Below, in pieces: positions 54,150-58,165 of a stretch of DNA of 64,000 nucleotides. Where the stretch lies: positions 1 through 64,000 of the forward strand of contig NZ_JACVXA010000005.1 in assembly GCF_014903745.1 (NCBI RefSeq). Reading direction: 5' to 3'. Made by a program: the position numbers and the translations under genes. The notes beneath the pieces are model-generated. The model saw only the letters and a list, made by a program, of their open reading frames with translations, did not search any database and was not told the DNA's origin. Source of the stretch: Mangrovicoccus algicola. Its GTDB lineage: Bacteria; Pseudomonadota; Alphaproteobacteria; Rhodobacterales; Rhodobacteraceae. The stretch's first letter is position 1. Each line of letters opens with the position of its first letter.

Positions 54150-55568
54150 ATGCGCGACATGACGGAACAGGACGGGACGGAACGGGGTCCGCCGGATCAC
54201 GCGGTGCTGGACCGGCTGTCGCGCTGCGCGACTGCCCTGGGCTACGAGGTCGTGGAGGTCTCCGGCTTCATCGACCTGATCCATGCCCGCGCCGCCGCCC
54301 AGGGCCCGGTCCTGGCGGAGGGACGTGCCGCCGCCGATCGCATCCTCGAGGCCAACAGCGCCGCGACCGAGGCGCTGGGGGCGATCCGCGCGGCGGCCGA
54401 ACGCGGCCTGTCCAGCGTGGAGGACTCCGTCGCCGCGCTGCGCGAAAGCGGCAGCCGGAGCCAGGCGGTCGCGGAATGGGTCCAGGCGCTGGATACCCGC
54501 ATGGGCGAGGTCAGCGACACGCTGAAGGAAGTGCGCAAGAACAACGGCGCCGTCACCTCGATCGCGGGACAGGTCAATATCCTGGCGATCAACGCCAAGA
54601 TCGAGGCCGCCCGCGCCGGGGATGCGGGGCGCGGCTTTGCCGTGGTCGCGGAGGCGGTCAACGAACTCTCCCGCCGCACCGCCGATGCGGCGGAGGCCAT
54701 CCTGACCAGCCTGACGGCGCTGACCGGCTGGATCGAGGCGCTGCGCGGCGAGGCCGCCAGCATCGGCAAGGAGGCCGGCGGCGTGCTGGAGGGGGCGCGG
54801 CGCACCGACGAGGCGCTGGCGGCCATTGCCGGAAACGTGCGCGCCACCCGCGACGATGCGGCCGGAGTGGAAGCCCGCGCCCGTGACGTCACCCGGGCCG
54901 GCAGCGCCTTCGGCGACTGCTTCTCCCGCGTGGAGGCGGCAATGGAGGACATGCGCGGCGGGATCGAGCAGGCGCGCGACCGGGTGCACGGTCTGATCGA
55001 CAAGAGCGAGACGATGGTCCAGCAAAGCGTCGCGATGGGCGGCGGGTCGACGGATGGCGCGCTGATTGCGCTGGCCCAGTCCCGCGCGGCGGAGATATCG
55101 CGGATTTTCGCGGAGGCCGTCGCCACCGGGCGGATCAGCCGCGGCGCCTTGTTCGATTTCACCTACCGGCCCGTCCCGGGCAGCGATCCTCCGCAATTCA
55201 CCGCTCCCTTCCTGGAACTGACCGATGCGCTTCTGCCGCCTATCCTGGAGGAGGTGCTGAAAGCCGATCCCAAGATCGTGTTCTGCGCCGCCGTCACGCG
55301 CCATGGCTATCTGCCGACGCATAACCGCAAGTTCTCCAACCCCCAGCGTCCGGGAGATCCGGCCTGGAATGCCGCCAACTGCCGAAACCGGCGCATTTTC
55401 GACGACCGGGTCGGGCTCAAGGCGGGCCAGAATCGCGATCCGTTCCTGCTTCAGGTCTATCGGCGGGACATGGGCGGCGGGGAATACCGCATGATGAAGG
55501 ACATCTCGGCGCCGATCACCGTCGATGGCGCCCCTTGGGGCGGGTTCCGGATGGGCGTGAATTTCTGA
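54150..55568 (+). CDS. Soluble methyl-accepting chemotaxis-type receptor with C-terminal sensor
   Basis: The 472-residue protein has no membrane segment. Residues 45-330 are the MCP coiled coil with the signalling tip SIAGQVNILAINAKIEAARA and GDAGRGFAVVAEAVNELSRR. The C-terminal 140 residues (from SRGALFDFTYRPVPG) end in MKDISAPITVDGAPWGGFRMG, a pattern seen in Cache-like tails of alphaproteobacterial cytoplasmic MCPs. No che genes are in the window. GGAGGG precedes the ATG at 54150. Confidence 0.9.
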   Translation: MRDMTEQDGTERGPPDHAVLDRLSRCATALGYEVVEVSGFIDLIHARAAAQGPVLAEGRAAADRILEANSAATEALGAIRAAAERGLSSVEDSVAALRESGSRSQAVAEWVQALDTRMGEVSDTLKEVRKNNGAVTSIAGQVNILAINAKIEAARAGDAGRGFAVVAEAVNELSRRTADAAEAILTSLTALTGWIEALRGEAASIGKEAGGVLEGARRTDEALAAIAGNVRATRDDAAGVEARARDVTRAGSAFGDCFSRVEAAMEDMRGGIEQARDRVHGLIDKSETMVQQSVAMGGGSTDGALIALAQSRAAEISRIFAEAVATGRISRGALFDFTYRPVPGSDPPQFTAPFLELTDALLPPILEEVLKADPKIVFCAAVTRHGYLPTHNRKFSNPQRPGDPAWNAANCRNRRIFDDRVGLKAGQNRDPFLLQVYRRDMGGGEYRMMKDISAPITVDGAPWGGFRMGVNF

Positions 55569-55601
55569 AAAAAGCCGCCATGCCCCTCGGGACATGGCGG
55601 C
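55568..55601 (-). terminator. Intrinsic terminator for the 40-residue small gene
   Basis: On the minus strand GCCGCCATG-TCCCGAGGGG-CATGGCGGC (55601-55574) is followed by TTTTTT (55573-55568). It directly abuts the end of the MCP gene and has the right orientation to end the transcript of the small gene at 55730-55852. Confidence 0.8.
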
Positions 55602-55729
55602 AGGCAGGCGAAACCCTTGCGCCGGACCGTTGGGGGACGATCGGACGGATCACCGGAACAGGCAGGAACCGGTCAGGATATTTCGCAGGCAGAGGTAAAC
55701 AGTCGGTCAGTCAGGCTGAAGCGCCCGGA

Positions 55730-55852
55730 TCACAGGAAATTCGGCAGATGCAGGCAGCCGAGAAGGATGACGGACAGCGCGGCCATTCCAGCGAGGTCCG
55801 CATAGAATGCTGCGGTGGCGCGGGTCTTGAGCTTTTCAATCACGGTCGGCAT
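55730..55852 (-). CDS. Small membrane protein (40 aa) under a LexA-type operator
   Basis: The reading frame starts at ATG 55852 and stops at TGA 55730-55732. It begins MPTVIEKLKTRATAAF (basic, amphipathic) and continues as one hydrophobic segment (LAGMAALSVILLGCLHL, residues 20-36). AAGGAGG at 55860-55866 lies 7 bases before the ATG, the best Shine-Dalgarno in the window. Two overlapping GAAC-N7-GAAC boxes lie 62-87 bases upstream, and a perfect terminator lies about 130 bases past the stop. These signals together make it a real gene despite its size. By analogy with SOS-induced small membrane proteins such as Caulobacter SidA, it may delay division after DNA damage; that is inference. Confidence 0.75.
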   Translation of the reverse strand: MPTVIEKLKTRATAAFYADLAGMAALSVILLGCLHLPNFL

Positions 55853-55913
55853 TGGCAGGCCTCCTTGGCTGATCGGATGTTGTATCTTTGTTCCGATTCT
55901 CGCCGTGTGTAAA

Positions 55914-55939
55914 GAACTTTTTAAGAACCTTTAAGGAAC
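55914..55939. promoter_or_regulatory. Tandem overlapping LexA (SOS) boxes
   Basis: Three GAAC half-sites start at 55914, 55925 and 55936, exactly 11 bases apart, so they form two overlapping GAAC-N7-GAAC boxes (GTTC-N7-GTTC on the minus strand). That is the LexA box established for alphaproteobacteria, including Rhodobacter. A fourth GAAC at 55949 is 13 bases on. The surrounding 55869-55975 is far more AT-rich than the rest of the window. Confidence 0.75.
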
Positions 55940-55952
55940 CAATAATGAGAAC

Positions 55953-56024
55953 ATGCGACAGTGGGGTATAAAACTGGCGATTGGTGCCGTATCGGCACTT
56001 ATCGACAGCACTGCCCCGGATTGA
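55953..56024 (+). CDS. Possible leaderless 23-residue peptide facing recG
   Basis: The frame starts at ATG 55953 and encodes a short peptide with a hydrophobic core (IKLAIGAVSALI). An AATAAT -10-like element (55941-55946) ends 6 bases before the ATG, the same spacing as other putative leaderless genes here, and the LexA boxes fall between it and a poor -35 (TTTTTA, 55918-55923). There is no ribosome site. It may be a real SOS-controlled peptide, the 5' end of an RNA antisense to the recG 3' end, or chance. Confidence 0.2.
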   Translation: MRQWGIKLAIGAVSALIDSTAPD

Positions 56025-56077
56025 CCGGTGATTGTTTCGAAAATCGCGATAGACCCGGCTAGATTCTGCCCTGGGGG

Positions 56078-58165
56078 TCATCCCACATCGAGAAGACGCA
56101 GCGCCTCGTCCCGCTGCATCAGCCATAGCAGATGACGCAACGCCCGGCCGCGATCGGTCAGCGGCGCGAATTCGGTATCGAGCGCCGCACGCGCCTCGCG
56201 CTGCGCCAGCATCATCAGCCCGGCCTGGTGTTCCAGATCGGCAATGCGGAACCGCGGGAGCCCGGACTGCGCGCGCCCGATGACATCCCCCACGCCGCGC
56301 ATCGCCATGTCCTCTTCCGCCAGCCGGAACCCGTCCTCGGTTTCGCGCATCAGGGTCAGCCGCCGTTCCGCCGAAGGCGAGAGCGGCGGCTGGTAGAGCA
56401 GCAGGCAGGTGGAGGCCGCCGCCCCGCGCCCGACCCGTCCGCGCAGCTGATGCAGCTGGGCCAGCCCGAAACTGTCGGCCCGCTCGATCACCATGATCGA
56501 GGCATTGGGCACATCGACGCCGACCTCGATCACCGTGGTCGCCACCAGCACCAGCAGGTCGCCGGCAGCGAAGCGCGCCATCACCGCGTCCTTGGCGGCG
56601 CCCGGCATCTGCCCATGGACCAGCCCCACCATCTGCGCCCCCAGCGCCGCCTGCAGGTGCCGCGCGCGCGCCTCCGCCGCGGTCAGATCGACGGTCTCGG
56701 TTTCCTCCACCAGCGGGCAGACCCAATAGGCCTGGCGTCCCTCGCCGATGGCCCGCGCCAGGTGGGCGACCACCTCGTCCAGCCGGTCCATCGGCATCAC
56801 GGCGGTGCGCACGGGCAGCCGGCCGGGCGGCTTCTCGTCCAGCACCGACAGGTCCAGATCGCCGTATTGCGCCAGCGCCAGCGAGCGCGGGATCGGCGTG
56901 GCGGTCATCACCAGCACGTCGGTGGCCGGGCCCTTGCGCGCCAGTTCCTGCCTCTGGGCCACGCCGAAGCGATGCTGTTCATCGATCACTGCCAGACGCA
57001 GATCGGCAAAGCGCACCTCCGGCTGGAACAGCGCATGCGTCCCGATCACCAGCGCCGCCTCGCCCGAGGCAATCCGCGCCAGCTTGGCGGCGCGCGCCTG
57101 GCCAGTGTCGCGCCCGGTCAGGATTTCGACCTGCACCCCGGCCGCCGCGGCGAGCGGGGCGATCCCCGCCAGGTGCTGCCGCGCGAGGATCTCGGTCGGG
57201 GCCATCATGGCGCCCTGGCCTCCGGCCTCCACCGCCTGCAGCAGCGCAAGCGTCGCCACCAGGGTCTTGCCCGCCCCGACATCCCCCTGCAGCAGCCGCG
57301 ACATCCGCGTCCCGGCCGCCATGTCGGCCGCGATCTCGGCGGCGGCGCGGGTCTGGGCGCCGGTCGGCGCGAAGGGCAGCGCCGCCAGCACCCGGGCGCG
57401 CAGATGCCCGTCGCCATGACTGGCACGGCCGCCGCGGCGGCGCTCGCGCTGGCGCGAGATGGCCAGGGTCAGCTGGTGGGCCAGCAATTCGTCATAGGCC
57501 AGCCGCGCCCGCGCAGGCGCCGCGCGCTCCAGATCGGCGGCCGATTCAGGATGATGCGCCAGGCGCAGCGCCTCGCGCCAGCCGGGCCAGCCCTTCTGCG
57601 CGCGCAGATGCGGGTCGATCCATTCGGGCAGATCCGGCGCCATGTCCAGCGCGCCCAGCACCGCCTTGCGCAGACCCCGCCCGGTGAGGCCCGCGGCCAG
57701 CGGATAGACCGGTTCATGCGAGGCCAGCGCCGCCGCCTCGTCGCGGGTCAGAACATGGTCGGGATGGGCCATCTGCGGATGGCCGTCGAACAGCTCCACC
57801 CGGCCCGAAACGATCCGGGTCTCTCCCACCGGCAGGTGCCGGTCCAGCCAGGCGCCCCTGGCATGGAAGAAGACCAGCGTGAAACGGGTGCCCGCATCCT
57901 CGACCAGCACCCGGTGCGGCCGCCCCTTCCGCGCGGGGGCGTCATGCGACAGGATCCGCACCTCCACCGTCGCGACCGCGGGCGGCTCCACCTCCAGCAC
58001 CGAGCGTTTCAGCCGCCGGTCGATCACCCCCTGGGGCAGCGTGAAAAGCAGGTCGCGCGGCCGTTCCACCCCCAGCCCGCCCATCGCCTGCGCGCCCTTG
58101 GGGCCGACGCCCGGCAGGCGGGTCAGTTCCGAGAAGAGCGGAAACAGGATCTCGGGCCGGGCCAT
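56078..58165 (-). CDS. recG: ATP-dependent DNA helicase RecG
   Basis: This 695-residue branch-migrating helicase reverses stalled replication forks. The N-terminal wedge/OB domain is residues 1-250 (LTRLPGVGPKGAQAM at the start). The helicase core has Walker A LLQGDVGAGKT, DEQH (VIDEQHRFGV), TATPIPRS and the RecG-typical TVIEVGVDVPNA and QLHQLRGRVGRG. It starts 7 bases after ligA on the same strand and is probably cotranscribed with it. The LexA-controlled small gene lies just downstream. Confidence 0.97.
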   Translation of the reverse strand: MARPEILFPLFSELTRLPGVGPKGAQAMGGLGVERPRDLLFTLPQGVIDRRLKRSVLEVEPPAVATVEVRILSHDAPARKGRPHRVLVEDAGTRFTLVFFHARGAWLDRHLPVGETRIVSGRVELFDGHPQMAHPDHVLTRDEAAALASHEPVYPLAAGLTGRGLRKAVLGALDMAPDLPEWIDPHLRAQKGWPGWREALRLAHHPESAADLERAAPARARLAYDELLAHQLTLAISRQRERRRGGRASHGDGHLRARVLAALPFAPTGAQTRAAAEIAADMAAGTRMSRLLQGDVGAGKTLVATLALLQAVEAGGQGAMMAPTEILARQHLAGIAPLAAAAGVQVEILTGRDTGQARAAKLARIASGEAALVIGTHALFQPEVRFADLRLAVIDEQHRFGVAQRQELARKGPATDVLVMTATPIPRSLALAQYGDLDLSVLDEKPPGRLPVRTAVMPMDRLDEVVAHLARAIGEGRQAYWVCPLVEETETVDLTAAEARARHLQAALGAQMVGLVHGQMPGAAKDAVMARFAAGDLLVLVATTVIEVGVDVPNASIMVIERADSFGLAQLHQLRGRVGRGAAASTCLLLYQPPLSPSAERRLTLMRETEDGFRLAEEDMAMRGVGDVIGRAQSGLPRFRIADLEHQAGLMMLAQREARAALDTEFAPLTDRGRALRHLLWLMQRDEALRLLDVG

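Follow-up and report, generated by a model that had tools for sequence, protein, structure and literature searches.

Introduction

SOS division inhibitors vary between lineages, and several described systems resemble a short locus that lies beside recG in Mangrovicoccus algicola (Rhodobacteraceae) and was analysed here in a stretch of 64,000 nucleotides (contig NZ_JACVXA010000005.1, positions 1 to 64,000; hereafter the window). The locus holds a 40-codon open reading frame (ORF) for a predicted single-helix membrane peptide, LexA-type boxes upstream and a structured 3′ untranslated region (UTR). SidA of Caulobacter crescentus is described as a 29-amino acid inhibitor of division that is SOS-induced, located in the inner membrane and active on FtsW (PMC4211646). 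DinR of Klebsiella pneumoniae is described as a small RNA (sRNA) from the 3′ end of the LexA-controlled dinI mRNA that blocks the ribosome-binding site (RBS) of ftsZ (PMC10907235). Pos19 of R. sphaeroides, which belongs to the RpoE regulon, and VcdRP of Vibrio cholerae are described as dual-function or small coding RNAs. TisB is an SOS-regulated single-helix toxic peptide. DinQ has been described as a toxic peptide with a single transmembrane segment, under SOS regulation and accompanied by antisense RNAs (PMC3567139).

The present locus shares with SidA the LexA-type control, the very short product, one transmembrane helix (predicted here) and an alphaproteobacterial host. It is likened to SidA by regulation, size and topology and not by sequence homology, its product having 40 amino acids against 29; recG linkage and a structured RNA are features found here that the part of PMC4211646 consulted does not mention for SidA. 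An earlier note on this DNA, made from the sequence alone, had drawn the same parallel, which holds on these points and stays an analogy. With DinR, the locus shares an RNA at the 3′ end of a LexA-type-controlled small-protein mRNA and sequence complementarity to the RBS of ftsZ; the structured 3′ end, the intrinsic terminator and a LexA-type operator are all present here. It differs in that the host gene of DinR encodes DinI, an 83-amino acid RecA modulator, and the pairing region of DinR is described as Klebsiella-specific, whereas the Rhodobacteraceae RNA and its putative target motif are family-wide; the present locus could be another such case, the second, and one conserved over a much broader range. 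Pos19 and VcdRP likewise derive a small protein and a regulatory RNA from one transcript, but their sequences are other ones, and no LexA link was seen in what was consulted of their reports. TisB and DinQ resemble the locus in SOS-type regulation and a single-helix peptide, and differ from it in that the gene described here has a core-genome distribution and a stem within the 3′ UTR, and no antisense RNA is known for it. The locus may thus work like SidA and DinR at once, and it is shown to be a member of neither.

The Rhodobacteraceae form a large group of marine and photosynthetic bacteria, several of which serve as laboratory models. The literature searched, which excluded most subscription papers, contained no description of the gene and its RNA, nor of any SOS division inhibitor in this family. 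The gene is near-universal in the family, small enough to be overlooked and paired with an RNA family absent from Rfam. With a probability of roughly 0.5, we propose that it gives a LexA-repressed dual-output transcript braking cell division through a membrane peptide and an ftsZ-silencing RNA. The locus thereby makes testable whether one SOS transcript halts division via a peptide, an RNA or both.

A gene for a predicted small membrane peptide, conserved in Rhodobacteraceae

The earlier note had described an SOS-type gene with frame, boxes, Shine-Dalgarno sequence, hydrophobic stretch and a hairpin followed by six T, and all of these were found at the claimed positions on the minus strand when checked against the window sequence. 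The 40-codon ORF (55730..55852, minus; ATG at 55852, stop codon 55732-55730) encodes MPTVIEKLKTRATAAFYADLAGMAALSVILLGCLHLPNFL and is supported by homologs, coding pattern, hydropathy and a predicted helix. The Shine-Dalgarno sequence AAGGAGG (55860..55866, minus) lies 7 bases before the ATG.

The distribution of the gene was examined in successive genome sets. Of 41 genomes searched first, 17 matched at E ≤ 1; four of these matches were strong (the own genome plus three congeners, with 80, 73 and 74% identity) and the rest weak, ten of the weak ones lying at the same place with the same signals. Lack of conservation of the frame in relatives had been named in the earlier note as evidence against the gene; a 12-member profile found it conserved in 269 of the 296 Rhodobacteraceae genomes (E ≤ 0.1). 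A 73-member profile found it in 227/244 genomes drawn from the order (E ≤ 0.001), all listed genomes being Rhodobacteraceae. Across 289 genomes sampled from the class the profile matched six times, five of these in Rhodobacteraceae; the sixth match, within an 817-codon frame, is regarded as spurious, and the 263 genomes without a match were not itemised singly. Most genomes had one match. The gene thus seems to belong to a single family and to be near-universal there.

For the comparison of loci, 106 were reduced to 96 distinct ones by removing three without a profile match (L009, L013 and L014) and seven repeats of the same places. The ORF has exactly 40 codons in 78 of these and starts with ATG in 95. 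Codon-position entropies over the 78 ORFs of exactly 40 codons were 1.13/0.70/1.55, the third position varying most, as expected for coding sequence. Among 73 aligned members G22, L34 and P37 are invariant and D19 nearly so. The peptide conservation together with the coding signature indicates that the ORF is under selection. The hydropathy maximum of the window peptide is 1.88 over 19 residues from residue 16, and a stretch of 19 residues reaching Kyte-Doolittle ≥ 1.6 is present in 95/96 peptides. Net charge over the first 18 residues averages +1.2 and is positive in 75/96. AlphaFold returned a single helix over residues 2-39 (mean pLDDT 84, pTM 0.43), and the peptide is probably located in the inner membrane. 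Pfam and NCBIfam gave no family for any of 12 members (E ≤ 1); with no Pfam, NCBIfam or Rfam match at the gene or its 3′ UTR, the locus is uncatalogued, as had been suggested.

Putative SOS-type promoter and position next to recG

Two LexA-type operators precede the ORF, GTTCCTTAAAGGTTC (55925..55939, minus) and GTTCTTAAAAAGTTC (55914..55928, minus); both match GTTC-N7-GTTC exactly and have one GTTC half-site in common, and boxes of this type also stand before lexA and recA, in the own genome included. The putative promoter (55886..55916, minus) consists of TTCTTTAC (55916-55909) followed by GGAACAAAG (55894-55886). Its arrangement is common in relatives as GTTCTTTAC-N15-17-GAGAACAAA, the window carrying GGAACAAAG where relatives have GAGAACAAA; a sigma-70 consensus scan did not detect it. 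In the window, GTTC-N7-GTTC occurs 3 times against 0.74 expected, and a terminator scan found one site, the hairpin of this gene, against a mean of 0.8 in shuffles. In the window alone the evidence against chance is modest, and it is the comparative evidence that carries the case. The third box of the window (30992, plus strand) looks like chance; it lies inside a long frame whose translation resembles a penicillin-binding protein.

An exact GTTC-N7-GTTC was present within 250 bp upstream of the ORF in 95 of the 96 loci (two boxes in 9/96) and in only one of 796 control windows of 250 bp from the same loci, so that box and frame are co-conserved, a relation the earlier note had put forward for checking. 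Read on the other strand as GAAC-N7-GAAC, the same box stands at 12/12 lexA loci (9 family genomes and 3 other genomes of the class; 14 loci available) and at 9/9 recA loci of family genomes (13 available). recG was found upstream on the same strand in 95/96 loci, with 93 to 623 nt between the end of its match and the ORF. The 96 loci are mostly the better-scoring profile matches and 95/96 is therefore not drawn from a random sample, so 30 genomes with missed or weak matches were checked by position. Five had no recG in the assembly. Among the 25 with recG, 18 carried a box-like site and a short hydrophobic frame after recG (for example MSTIRRARHFLASAPAQAAGDAIGLIAMVAVVALGFTLPGYF in genome G007) and seven neither; the 18 comprise 15 with exact GTTC-N7-GTTC, two with the GAAC form only and one with a degenerate box. 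Genome G164 (L151) has a box and a 38-amino acid frame. In two small AT-rich relatives (L163 and L162, genomes G173 and G104) recG is followed by a LexA-type box and a short hydrophobic frame, the sequence being barely similar. L017, L048, L052, L059 and L076 have, besides the upstream box, a complete GAAC-N7-GAAC that lies downstream of the first box and ahead of the start codon and may be a second operator.

The linkage was also approached without the peptide, by scanning one genome per species from 84,980 species for the promoter pattern GTTC-N7-GTTCTTTAC-N15-17-GAGAACAAA. At least 118 stretches were returned. Among the 118 matches listed, the peptide was present in 117 (115 at E < 1e-3), the remaining stretch (L257) ending before the peptide position, and recG lay just upstream in 115, two stretches (L247 and L261) being cut before recG. 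The matches listed belong to Ruegeria, Roseovarius, Sulfitobacter, Paracoccus, Rhodovulum and other genera, presumably all Rhodobacteraceae, or are metagenome-assembled genomes (MAGs) labelled Alphaproteobacteria, Rhodobacterales or Rhodobacteraceae; nine of the 96 loci are identical over the gene to one of these named loci. A real exception is L272, a MAG with the promoter pattern and a related peptide (MRTLSVILYQHRTTIFGDTIGVLAILALVTSVLALPGM) but without recG directly upstream. The co-conservation of frame, box and position across Rhodobacteraceae bears out the earlier proposal of an SOS-type small membrane-protein gene beside recG, and on comparative grounds it is very probably a real SOS-controlled gene, to whose operator LexA would bind and whose transcription would be induced by DNA damage.

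Folding of the 3′ untranslated region

The stretch between stop codon and hairpin holds a structured RNA, and neither this RNA nor its link to ftsZ was part of the earlier note. From stop codon to terminator end the UTR measures 106-273 nt, mostly 150-200. Over the first 320 nt beyond the stop, CTGCCTG was present in 80/96 loci, and CTGTCC likewise in 80/96. In most of 17 individual folds a long-range stem, P1, closes a multi-branched structure which contains, in order, P2 (CUGUCCC loop), P3 (GAC-CUGCCU-GUC) and P4 (GCCUC loop) and is followed by the terminator. Conservation within the UTR is among the highest at the CUGCC and UGUCC columns, which lie mostly outside stems, and a GCCGCC...GGCGG-T terminator stem is conserved in 60 aligned relatives.

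In the window (all on the minus strand), the structured part starts with a first CUGCCUG (55686..55692; −14.7 kcal/mol with the complementary RBS of its own ftsZ) and the 5′ arm of P1, GCGAAAUAUCC (55676..55686), recognised from the fold and from its own duplex. A hairpin CCGG-UUCCUGCCUGUU-CCGG (55653..55672) presents the second CUGCCUG (55665-55659) in its loop. The 3′ arm of P1, GGUUUCGC (55608..55615), assigned by the arm-pairing test and the fold, is followed directly before the terminator stem by the third CUGCCUG (55601..55607; −13.6 kcal/mol with ftsZ). The intrinsic terminator (55568..55601) was detected by the terminator scan and has a 12-bp stem (55601-55574), conserved in relatives, and T6 (55573-55568).

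P1 was evaluated without an alignment by pairing 5′ and 3′ arms within and between species. The terminator was found in 94 UTRs (not in L051 and L073), and removal of L027, L076 and L102 left 91. Own arms paired at a mean of −20.4 kcal/mol against −13.97 for between-species arms (sd of permuted means 0.33), a value reached in none of 2000 permutations; when the own partner was dinucleotide-shuffled, the mean was −13.5. Double changes were seen in 28/28 pairs, in 331 cells against 75.7 when shuffled and 43-65 with slid partners, on a 73-row alignment that leans towards structure by construction. The fold z-score over 32 loci was −4.6 for the whole UTR and −1.65 without its last 45 nt.

A covariance model (R1) built from 15 sequences matched 73/95 loci at E ≤ 1; 57 reached E ≤ 0.01, and one match (L091) was off the locus. 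Among the named loci of the promoter scan, 80 of the 118 entered the R1 test (all 118 entered the peptide test) and 38/80 matched at E ≤ 0.01, a count that is not wholly independent because at least two (L008 and L062) are R1 seeds under another name. With stricter filters, R1 matched 8 of 41 genomes, once each and always at the place of this gene, and missed 33, including the own genome. Rfam gave no match at the 3′ UTR in the window stretch (one sub-threshold snoRNA match elsewhere) or in 20 loci (six sub-cut-off Ysr141 matches outside the UTR). These comparisons make it highly probable that the conserved 3′ UTR RNA is real and structured; it is new and absent from Rfam.

RNA motifs complementary to the ftsZ start region

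Because of the Klebsiella DinR precedent, ftsZ was the first target tried. The ftsZ RBS of the family is mostly aCAGGCGGACAGagcATG or close to it, with CAGGCAG in the genus of the window and a typical spacing of aCAGGCGGACAG-N3-ATG. CAGGC[AG]G could pair with CUGCCUG over 7 bp (with one G-U for CAGGCGG) and GGACAG, where it comes next, with CUGUCC. The conserved RNA-ftsZ complementarity is about 7-9 bp long. In the own genome the best predicted duplex with the ftsZ RBS (−16.2 kcal/mol) comes from the hairpin loop at 55672-55653.

CAGGC[AG]G was found at the ftsZ RBS in 77/93 family genomes, these being the genomes with the locus plus deliberately included missed ones. The count was corrected for G020, where the script match lay in coding sequence, and for G004, scored as a non-match with the motif at the true start, which leaves the script total of 77 unchanged; L329 (G001) was left out, and G195 has an ftsZ fragment only. 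The ftsZ match of L329, from the same genus as the window, reads as foreign sequence, and the assembly may be contaminated. In nine genomes of other families the motif was at the ftsZ RBS in none and far upstream in two. It was present at the start of 1/36 ctrA genes, near 0/9 lexA and 1/9 recA genes, and near 5/440 long ORFs. The motif occurred in 75 of the 82 genomes with the gene and in 2 of the 11 in which it was not found (Fisher p 6e-7). Rhodobacteraceae ftsZ genes, that of the own genome (L340) for example, mostly have an unusual and conserved CAGGCGGAC-like RBS which is not seen in the nine other-family genomes.

Proposed dual-output model and its alternatives

On the proposed model, the −35 region would in the undamaged cell be covered by LexA bound at one or two GTTC-N7-GTTC boxes. 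DNA damage would remove LexA and release a single transcript of about 300-350 nt, with the 40-amino acid ORF, the structured 3′ UTR and the terminator. The peptide, whose N-terminal segment is mostly basic and whose single predicted transmembrane helix ends in LHLPxL or a similar sequence, would insert into the inner membrane and there most likely slow division, as SidA does in Caulobacter. The multi-stem RNA, with its long-range helix and several exposed CUGCCUG/CUGUCC copies, would pair with the ftsZ RBS and lower FtsZ synthesis, and peptide and RNA would jointly hold division until repair ends. The separate activities are of different standing: that the peptide is a division inhibitor is plausible, at somewhat less than even odds, whereas ftsZ as the RNA target is an evenly balanced call. 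That this is a previously undescribed SOS checkpoint, in which a single LexA-controlled gene would halt division at two points, the divisome and FtsZ synthesis, and the ftsZ RBS would be a family-wide RNA docking site, is also held tentatively, slightly below an even chance.

Several results weigh against the model. R1 does not detect the RNA copy of the window, a divergent member whose own P1 arms pair at −17.5 kcal/mol (3/90 foreign partners are equally good) and which keeps three CUGCCUG copies. RNAalifold recovers the terminator only from a 60-row MAFFT alignment and shows no P1 on a 17-row set (A5). The exact ftsZ motif is missing in 7/82 genomes with the gene, and on the RecG tree (G164 and G195 left out) its co-occurrence with the gene reduces to 3-4 independent pairs, mostly concordant and not significant (median p 0.5). 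By pairing energy alone, ftsZ does not stand out: with RNA motifs taken from 13 relatives, between 9 and 114 of the 440 background start regions paired at least as well, and with the RNA of the window 2/89 did, the background including spurious frames and, for the relatives, genes of other species. Duplexes of whole UTR and ftsZ in 11 genomes showed no signal (own −56.6, foreign −54.5, sd 9.6), and the motif list was compiled with the RNA in view, though ftsZ was the first target tried. The even standing given to the ftsZ step follows from the many start regions that pair equally well and from the lack of an own-versus-foreign difference in the duplexes.

The closest alternative keeps only the peptide, which would bind a divisome protein and block division in the manner of SidA, while the 3′ UTR stabilises the mRNA or tunes its translation and the resemblance to the ftsZ RBS is unrelated. 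Peptide size, single helix and LexA-type box fit SidA, the genus of the window keeps the peptide while its RNA diverges, and ftsZ is not picked out by energy. However, the high conservation of the CUGCC and UGUCC columns, mostly outside stems, is more than a passive stabiliser needs, and the CAGGC[AG]G motif is family-wide at the ftsZ RBS and not at ctrA (1/36) or at the ftsZ RBS of other families; we regard this explanation as rather unlikely, with perhaps one chance in four. The opposite emphasis, an RNA directed at some target besides ftsZ or serving as a protein or sRNA sponge, with the peptide minor, suits the several exposed copies of one motif, and the search covered few targets apart from ftsZ; but the peptide conservation and coding signature mark an ORF under selection and the ftsZ RBS is conserved, which makes it improbable.

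A pore-forming SOS peptide of the TisB/DinQ kind, its translation held by its own structured mRNA or by an antisense RNA and its effect being dormancy, as in a type I toxin, has on its side the SOS-type control, about 40 amino acids with one helix, the long structured UTR and the precedent of DinQ, described as an SOS-regulated toxic peptide with antisense RNAs. A sigma-70 consensus scan of both strands over 55300-56300, which also misses the promoter of the gene itself, found no antisense promoter; mostly one match per genome and the near-universal spread in the family resemble a core checkpoint gene more, and the conserved stem lies wholly inside the 3′ UTR. We judge a toxin of this type improbable to the same degree as the other-target RNA. 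A chance frame and box beside recG would be in keeping with the window taken alone, where the boxes are mildly unexpected and the hairpin not at all, but coincidence is refuted by the family-wide co-conservation of profile, boxes, recG, coding signature and promoter-scan matches, and its probability is negligible.

Further candidate targets and gene neighbourhood

Some other RNA targets were tried besides ftsZ. A shared target was sought through the perfect 11-nt complement of P3 (GGGACAGGCAG), which gave 41 sites in 12 genomes against 49 for a reversed-pattern control. The 30 sites examined had no shared locus and showed three weak pairwise protein similarities (29-32%), one of which joined neighbouring stretches of one genome; another site, L311, was the opposite strand of the SOS locus itself. 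One of the perfect 11-nt complements, that in L315 (genome G222), is found at the RBS of a coiled-coil gene that immediately precedes zapA. As a target, zapA was set aside, any variant of the motif being present in 4 and CAGGC[AG]G in 1 of 30 other zapA loci, some with uncertain starts. For ctrA the single match among the 36 genes with a complete start was in L234, with CAGGCGG at the RBS. The master cell-cycle regulator gene ctrA lies within the same 8-kb stretch as the recG locus in at least 36 of the 118 promoter-scan records.

The neighbours of the 40-codon gene are recG on its own strand (minus, 58165-56078) and, in convergent orientation, a chemoreceptor-like ORF (plus, 54150-55568). The terminator's run of T (window 55574-55566) directly adjoins the stop codon of the convergent ORF; the hairpin and T6 reported in the earlier note are present, and for this reason it is not clear that they are dedicated to the small gene, as had been stated. 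A convergent gene of similar kind was found in 25 of the 96 loci.

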